A stretch of 8,804 nucleotides of DNA from a bacterium (GTDB lineage: Bacteria > JAJVIF01 > JAGGVT01). The notes under the pieces were generated by a model that was not told the origin of the DNA, did not search any database, and was given only the letters and a program-made list of their open reading frames with translations. Shown one piece after another: positions 2,413 through 7,080 of the stretch; the first letter of the stretch is position 1, and every line of letters begins with the position of its first letter. The position numbers were made by a program, and so were the translations under genes. The stretch lies in assembly GCA_021157815.1 (NCBI GenBank), contig JAGGVT010000144.1:1-8804 (forward strand). Direction: 5' to 3'.

Positions 2413-2437
2413 AACCGGGCACATCGCCCGGTTTTTT
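2413..2437 (+). terminator. Rho-independent terminator after the lipoprotein gene
   Basis: AACCGGGC (2413-2420) pairs perfectly with GCCCGGTT (2426-2433) around a 5-nt loop, and the stem runs into a T-tract ending at 2437. It lies 28 nt beyond the stop codon. Confidence 0.88.
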
Positions 2438-2445
2438 AAATCTAT

Positions 2446-2624
2446 CCTGGGAGCGCTGGTCTCTGACCGGCACCTGTGGTAGGTTAATAGATATCAATTG
2501 AGCTTATCTAACAAACAATATACTAAAAGATAGGCGTTGAGTTAATCAACCATGTTTGTAAGATTCCCGTTTTTACATTTTAGCTAATCCGTTCAGGTGC
2601 CGGTCAGAGACCAGCGCTCCCAGG
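2446..2624. repeat. 179-bp palindromic (MITE-like) element with perfect 31-bp arms
   Basis: The arms 2446-2476 and 2594-2624 are exact reverse complements over 31 bp. They begin CCTGGGAGCGCTGG and contain CTCTGACCGG. Each arm can also fold on itself: GCTGGTC pairs with GACCGGC around TCT, with one G-U. The 117-nt interior is AT-rich and continues the pairing imperfectly, for example GGTT near 2482 with AACC near 2549, and the flanking TTATCT with AGATAG. No open reading frame of note lies inside. It fills nearly the whole gap between the convergent lipoprotein and HD genes. A non-autonomous transposable element is the likeliest identity. I could not identify target-site duplications, and the flanks are simple A/T runs. 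Confidence 0.82.
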
Positions 2625-2681
2625 AAAAAATATTTTTATAAAATGCAATAACTTAAAACATGGTTTTTCAGGGGCGACTAT
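2625..2681. other. AT-rich spacer, nothing recognised
   Basis: This is a short A/T-rich stretch between the palindromic element and the end of the HD gene. A weak AAAAC/GTTTT pairing is the only structure. I see no convincing terminator for the HD gene on the minus strand. Confidence 0.5.
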
Positions 2682-3265: not shown

Positions 3266-3340
3266 TAGCCCGGTTTCTCATTAACCGGGAAAATTATGGT
3301 CGATTCACGCAATACCCCGGCAAAGGGATGCCGGGTTACA
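3266..3340 (+). repeat. 75-bp double-hairpin repeat, copy A
   Basis: It matches copy B (6954-7028) at 62 of 75 positions in an ungapped hand alignment, and in the same orientation. It holds two tandem hairpins: CCCGGTT/AACCGGG (starting at 3269) and CCCGGC/GCCGGG (ending at 3335). The outer ends, TGTAGCCCGG and CCGGGTTACA, are also near-perfect inverted repeats, so a cloverleaf-like fold is possible. It resembles a REP or MITE family. It lies in the leader of the HD gene, between it and the lipoprotein gene. Confidence 0.8.
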
Positions 3341-3345
3341 AGATA

Positions 3346-3768
3346 CTAAAGCTTATCGATAACAAATGTGCCTTCGCTAAATGAAATGCCTGACTGGTAG
3401 TAAAACGTGCCTGTGAATATAAGTTGAACGTGATCAATCAACCCGTCAAACTCGCCAAAGTCGCCTGTTATATTATATGAGGAAAACAGGATATTGTCGC
3501 CGTCATATTCCACATGGGCATCGTAGATGTATGTATTATTCAGGTAAATTGAGACAAGGACATTTTCGTTATACTCATAGAAACTCAAATCTACTTTATC
3601 GACCAGTCCGGTTGTCGTTTCAGAAAGCCCTGACCAGTTGCCAAGCAGGTGGTCCAGTTCCTCCTGTGTTGGCACATCAACCGGAATGTATGGCGTTGTG
3701 CTGGTAGATGAGCATCCTGCTGCAGGCATGAGGAGCAGAAGCAGTCCGTATATAATTATTTTTCGCAT
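3346..3768 (-). CDS. Predicted lipoprotein, lipocalin-like beta pattern, downstream of ileS
   Basis: This 140-residue protein has a typical lipoprotein signal: MRK, hydrophobic residues 4-14, then PAAGC with the acylated C19, followed by a Ser/Thr linker. The mature part is almost entirely beta-strand-like. It opens with LLGNWSG (about 42-48) and ends with GTFVIDKL, a pattern seen in small lipocalin-like or beta-barrel envelope proteins in which alternating strands turn back on glycines. That is inference from pattern, not a recognised family. The ATG is only 4 nt past the ileS stop codon. Its ribosome binding site AAGG sits in the last ileS codons, 9 nt before the start, so it is almost certainly cotranscribed with ileS and possibly translationally coupled. 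Why a lipoprotein is tied to a tRNA synthetase is not apparent. Confidence 0.78.
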   Translation of the reverse strand: MRKIIIYGLLLLLMPAAGCSSTSTTPYIPVDVPTQEELDHLLGNWSGLSETTTGLVDKVDLSFYEYNENVLVSIYLNNTYIYDAHVEYDGDNILFSSYNITGDFGEFDGLIDHVQLIFTGTFYYQSGISFSEGTFVIDKL

Positions 3769-6953: not shown

Positions 6954-7028
6954 TAGCCCGGTTTCTTATTAACCGGGGAAATGGCGATAAATTCACACAT
7001 TACCCCGGCGAAAGGACGCCGGGTTACA
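6954..7028 (+). repeat. 75-bp double-hairpin repeat, copy B
   Basis: This is the second full copy of the family at 3266-3340, in the same orientation. It also sits directly upstream of a minus-strand gene (ileS, about 55 nt from its start). The hairpins are CCCGGTT/AACCGGG (6957-6977) and CCCCGGC with GCCGGG (around 7003-7023). TAGCCCGG and CCGGGTTACA form its ends. Any long-start reading of ileS would translate through it. Confidence 0.8.
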
Positions 7029-7080
7029 ATAAAATATGTTTTTTCGAATGCCTTAAATAATTAATTACAAATATTCATGA

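Follow-up and report, generated by a model that had tools for sequence, protein, structure and literature searches.

REPINs and RAYTs have been described mainly in Proteobacteria. REPINs are inverted doublets of REP sequences, with conserved ends and a spacer, and have been linked to RAYTs (Bertels and Rainey, 2011, PMC3116915). The spacers of REP dimers are usually 20-100 bp long, and REP dimers nested in longer palindromes were reported from A. variabilis, T. roseum, and H. neapolitanus (Di Nocera et al., 2013, PMC3733652). In addition, REPs are targeted by insertion sequences such as IS1397 and ISPsy8 (Tobes and Pareja, 2006, PMC1525189). Here we describe a repeat found in a stretch of 8,804 nucleotides (contig JAGGVT010000144.1, hereafter the window) from a bacterial genome assembly of 3.2 Mb in 221 contigs, which is 91% complete. 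On its tested anatomy this repeat works like a REPIN, apart from the RAYT link in its own genome.

A scan of the window returned, as the best inverted repeat by a wide margin, two segments of 32 nt with 100% complementarity and 117 nt between them. The earlier note on this DNA had rightly called the arms perfect, while their length is 32 bp (2445-2476 / 2594-2625) instead of the 31 bp given there. The features of the locus are as follows.

2414 to 2437, forward strand: terminator-like hairpin with a T-run, belonging to the upstream gene and identified by inspection of the sequence; context, outside the repeat.
2445 to 2476, forward strand: left arm, 32 nt, repeated in inverted orientation without a mismatch as the right arm; its sequence GGGAGCGCTGGTCTCTGACCGGCACC recurs genome-wide.
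2450 to 2471, forward strand: left REP unit, with the GGAG tag at 2450-2453, the stem at 2455-2461 / 2465-2471, and the loop TCT at 2462-2464.
2477 to 2593, forward strand: spacer, 117 bp, AT-rich, with no ORF, homologous across copies.
2594 to 2625, reverse strand: right arm, 32 nt.
2599 to 2620, reverse strand: right REP unit, mirror image of the left REP unit.
2626 to 2678, forward strand: right-hand portion of the shell, an IS5-derived MITE, with the terminal repeat TTTTTCAGGGGCGAC at 2664-2678.
2679 to 2680, no strand: dinucleotide TA beyond the end of the shell, the probable target, from the sequence and the outer ends of other copies.

The shell part was delimited by the homology of this flank in many copies, by a terminal pattern scan, and by the IS5-family remnants on contigs C28 and C217. 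Where the left shell is gone, the left arm of the window copy adjoins the terminator-like hairpin of the upstream gene, which is absent, together with its T-run, from the listing of the consensus terminator scan. The neighbouring genes are convergent: an unassigned ORF finishes at 2384, and the stop codon of an HD-domain gene lies at 2682-2684. No ORF of at least 80 aa was found to cover the element, in agreement with the proposal that it encodes no protein.

As RNA, the element has a predicted folding energy of -95.7 kcal/mol versus -41.9 +/- 3.9 kcal/mol for shuffled sequences (z = -13.7), and the corresponding DNA fold gives z = -12.3. Each arm is able to fold alone into the hairpin GCTGGTC-TCT-GACCGGC, the full arm unit being GGAG-C-GCTGGTC-TCT-GACCGGC. 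The spacer ends are loosely complementary as judged by eye, and the consensus structure of 36 copies contains no conserved spacer base pair between the arms. The idea that the interior continues the pairing is thus supported only weakly. The only Rfam match, to MIR8562, scored 51.9 against a gathering score of 211 and was taken for a generic long-hairpin match.

The arm pattern has 43 exact matches in its own genome, where a 191-bp query also retrieved about 40 full-length relatives; when copies cut by contig ends or insertions are counted as well, about 50 places carry arms or spacer. Every intact copy consists of two REP sequences in inverted orientation, and exceptions to the inverted pair with spacer are confined to contig ends, insertions, and truncations. 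Neither the element nor its arms occur in the three class relatives searched. Genome and viral collections yielded no exact arm match, and nothing similar was found in plasmids. An IleRS scan for a close relative yielded only homologues of 44-48% identity. The element is accordingly a multi-copy, non-coding repeat with no enzyme of its own, as had been supposed, and not a single-copy structure conserved in relatives.

Of 28 gene gaps that hold the module, 13 are convergent, versus 1 of 22 other gaps, an enrichment matching that reported for REPs (PMC3733652). Such a position, along with the strong fold, would be expected of a regulatory RNA or transcript-end structure under host-level selection, for example an mRNA-stabilising 3'-UTR hairpin between convergent genes, and it would also fit this explanation that old copies keep their arms and that several copies have the shell trimmed up to the arms. 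However, the stem is followed by an A-run and not a T-run on both strands, so that the element is not an intrinsic terminator, and the terminator scan lists none there; no pairing is conserved inside the arms; the loss of harmful insertions would yield the same position bias; and occupation of ~50 sites requires a mobility step anyway. We consider host-level selection on the transcript an improbable explanation of the repeat. The window copy, though no intrinsic terminator, could still be part of a transcript as a 3'-UTR hairpin.

For comparison of arms and spacer, 36 copies were oriented and then aligned, and a tree was made from the spacer. Across copies, 168-175 bp separate the outer arm edges; the spacers are conserved in length and ~75-92% identical to that of the window copy, whereas the arms are nearly invariant. 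Terminal-branch changes per site on the spacer tree amount to 0.73 and 0.62 in the arms versus 2.8 in the spacer, about four times fewer in the arms, although part of this low arm rate could stem from source lineages that were not sampled, and not from constraint acting on resident copies. The earlier note had attributed the exact arms to recent arrival or to active maintenance by mobility or gene conversion. Exact arms are no sign of recent arrival, because the arms are near-identical in all copies, whereas the spacers diverge by as much as about 25%. As to gene conversion, arms of the common class show 1.06 mismatches per 26 nt within one copy versus 1.14 between copies; since within-copy differences equal those between copies, the conservation is general and not the product of local arm-to-arm copying, and gene conversion between the arms found no support.

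Covariation was examined in 104 arms representing 23 distinct sequences. Two apical stem pairs vary compensatorily (T-A/C-G, T-A/T-A, and A-T/T-A), and the compensation falls inside one and the same arm, across subfamilies, which supports the earlier view that each arm forms a hairpin. Nearly all of the 104 arms carry the tag GGAG, on which ground membership in the GTAG REP superfamily was rejected; the string GGAG does not occur in the main text of PMC3733652. A second arm type (GGTTTCTAACC) exists in the same genome, and both arms are altered in the intact copies having the T/A arm type. Moreover, a short sister form of the usual REPIN size was detected at several places in the genome, consisting of inverted GGAGCGC-framework pairs with arm starts 68-71 bp apart and two small hairpins between the arms. 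Many of these short-form arms have an A.G mismatch in the apical pairs. Single or degraded arms are found at further places.

In most copies the arms continue into common flanks. On the right, the flank terminates with TTTTTCAGGGACGAC and then TA; on the left, it extends over ~135 bp in the fullest copy. The complete shell measures about 365 bp. The remnants on C28 and C217 have both termini in common with this shell and encode IS5-family transposase fragments, both matching NF033578 IS5 and one also PF05598; we therefore interpret the shell as a MITE derived from IS5. An intact autonomous IS was not found in the assembly. Some copies are consistent with a TA at each side, although a match of two bases carries little weight, and the window copy has one end only. 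A YTAR target duplication was rejected, as the four bases on the left and right are reverse complements and not direct repeats, and TA is the better reading. Nearly identical shell halves at the ends of contigs C30, C71, C73, C129, C164, and C206 suggest recent shell activity. The window copy keeps the right shell end alone (2664-2678), the left shell end and left TA being missing, and is thus an old, truncated member between convergent genes and not a recent arrival. Most copies lie inside the shell, and in these the 179-bp element is only part of the mobile unit.

These flanks also bear on an invertible DNA switch, in which the perfect 32-bp inverted arms would serve as recombination sites and the interior would flip. 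One copy (L040) has a left-type shell flank at its right side, as a flipped interior might produce; yet in the copies compared the spacer orientation tracks the shell flanks apart from this chimera, which is explained by a single recombination between copies. Against a switch there is also the result that no promoter-like signal rose above shuffles. We regard a switch as extremely improbable.

It could further be argued that the whole shell is the sole mobile unit and that the inner palindrome is the interior of an IS5-derived MITE, inherited as a passenger with no mobility of its own, given that shell flanks and IS5-type ends are found in most copies and that the recent, near-identical copies are of the shell type. 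Nevertheless, conservation is highest in the inner arms, though IS5 transposition should not need them; the same arm-spacer-arm core, with a matched T/A arm variant, recurs in C104 and its relatives inside an unrelated shell with GTGTCGGGAA ends; and no IS5 shell is seen around the short sister elements, which have the arm framework in common with it. A purely IS5-driven origin therefore seems rather unlikely to us.

Other elements were observed within the repeat itself. A MITE with GGGGCTGTTGAAAAA ends lies in the REP-arm loop in three copies (L132 on C133, L133 on C218, and L145 on C187), with an apparent 5-bp target duplication (TTCTA, TAGAA/TGGAA, and ATCTT). An element with CACTACTGTCCGGTTAA-type ends splits the spacer at apparently one site, about GAYRACAT, in L079 (C213), L080 (C53), L085 (C160), L130 (C192), and L131 (C119), and several of these contigs break nearby.

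The copies with T/A arms have different surroundings, which in C104 form a shell with GTGTCGGGAA ends. Other copies of the GTGTCGGGAA-ended shell hold other palindromic cores, one of them being the repeat that flanks the RAYT gene on C84, and in several second-shell copies the two flanks, once joined, make up a hairpin whose loop is the insertion point, with a TA repeat. Tentatively, REP-pair cores may be interchangeable modules in several unrelated MITE shells. Successive elements may insert into the loops of hairpins, in the order terminator loop, shell, REP-pair core, and arm-loop MITE; if all of them favour extruded hairpins, nested palindromes would be enlarged from their centre. We regard this as less likely than not. 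The palindromic cores differ between copies of the second MITE shell, with AAGAGCGTGTCGGGAAAGG ends (L146-L169, 24 ends in G000), which often sits in a terminator-like hairpin loop with a TA repeat. The window contains a further near-perfect inverted repeat (1121-1146 / 1184-1209, CCGAGCCTCGAACGT...), and its outer part recurs beside the second shell in C104 and C137.

The genome contains nine Y1_Tnp genes, none of which is clearly flanked by a module arm in this 91% complete, 221-contig assembly; the search for a RAYT with ends matching the arms, as recommended in the earlier note, thus gave no clear match in the genome. No arm-like sequence was found at the C83 Y1_Tnp locus. A degenerate copy (CCTGGGAGCGCTGGAATCTGTCCGACGCTCCCA) lies 5' of the C65 RAYT gene, which has its own unrelated GGGGACGG / GGGGACGGACAC flanks, and such a neighbour by chance is not improbable. 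Most of the nine genes are visibly bracketed, each by a different repeat family (L108, L109, L110, L111, L113, L114, and L115), indicating that pairing of REPs with RAYTs is customary in this genome and that several REP systems coexist in it. Two copies of the TAGCCCGGTTTC.../CCGGGTTACA repeat, from the family flanking the C182 RAYT gene, lie in the window (3266-3359 and 6954-7047). When 385 genomes were scanned for the wider arm framework, matches appeared in two others, G305 (23 matches) and G071 (3). In G305, a member of another phylum, one of three Y1_Tnp genes is flanked by GGAGCGC-type REPs, four at the 3' side and one at the 5' side. Its protein has no close homologue among six Y1 proteins of the genome under study (best identity ~31%). 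These REPs beside the G305 gene, together with the arm covariation, make a RAYT the right kind of enzyme to suspect, as had been anticipated.

We conclude that the element is probably a REPIN-type non-autonomous repeat in which two REP-like hairpins face each other across a 117-bp spacer, with arms recognised in trans by a RAYT, most copies being passengers of the IS5 shell, and the window copy being old. This reading builds on the observed anatomy, the multi-copy state, the stronger conservation of arms than of spacer, the arm covariation, and the location of most cores within an IS5-ended MITE shell. For the enzyme and the movement of the core, we infer, in line with what has been proposed for REPINs, that the arms would form hairpins in single-stranded DNA and be recognised in trans by a transposase of the Y1/HUH (RAYT) type; the need for hairpin recognition would explain the conservation of the arms. 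IS5 transposition would have dispersed the shell-borne copies, the core travelling as a passenger, and the present distribution may owe much to this transport.

The analysis adds a GGAG-tagged REP class, including a long-spacer form, from a sparsely sampled phylum, and ties the GGAGCGC framework to a RAYT gene of G305, which belongs to another phylum. REP pairs carried by IS-derived MITEs also represent a testable second spreading route that needs no enzyme of their own.

Like REPINs (PMC3116915), the element is an inverted REP pair with invariant ends, a less conserved spacer, and a long hairpin, and it is extragenic, present in many copies, and devoid of coding capacity. Unlike REPINs, it has no cognate RAYT that we could find in the same genome, most of its copies are nested in an IS5-type shell, and its spacer of 117 bp contrasts with the 71 bp between first residues in the SBW25 GI doublets (PMC3116915) and lies above the usual 20-100 bp (PMC3733652). 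With the GTAG and CGTC REP superfamilies (PMC3733652) it shares tagged stem-loop units, frequent dimers, and a location at convergent gene ends, and some dimer families there are likewise nested in longer palindromes, whereas its own tag is GGAG followed by CGC and not GTAG. As in IS5-family MITEs, the termini are common to internally deleted IS5-family remnants, and TA is the probable target; in contrast to them, the shell here holds a conserved inner REP pair, with no intact autonomous IS in the assembly. Finally, as described for IS1397 and ISPsy8 (PMC1525189), other mobile elements enter the repeat at a fixed point, the inserts in the present case being the GGGGCTGTTGAAAAA-ended MITE in the arm loops and another element at the spacer site.
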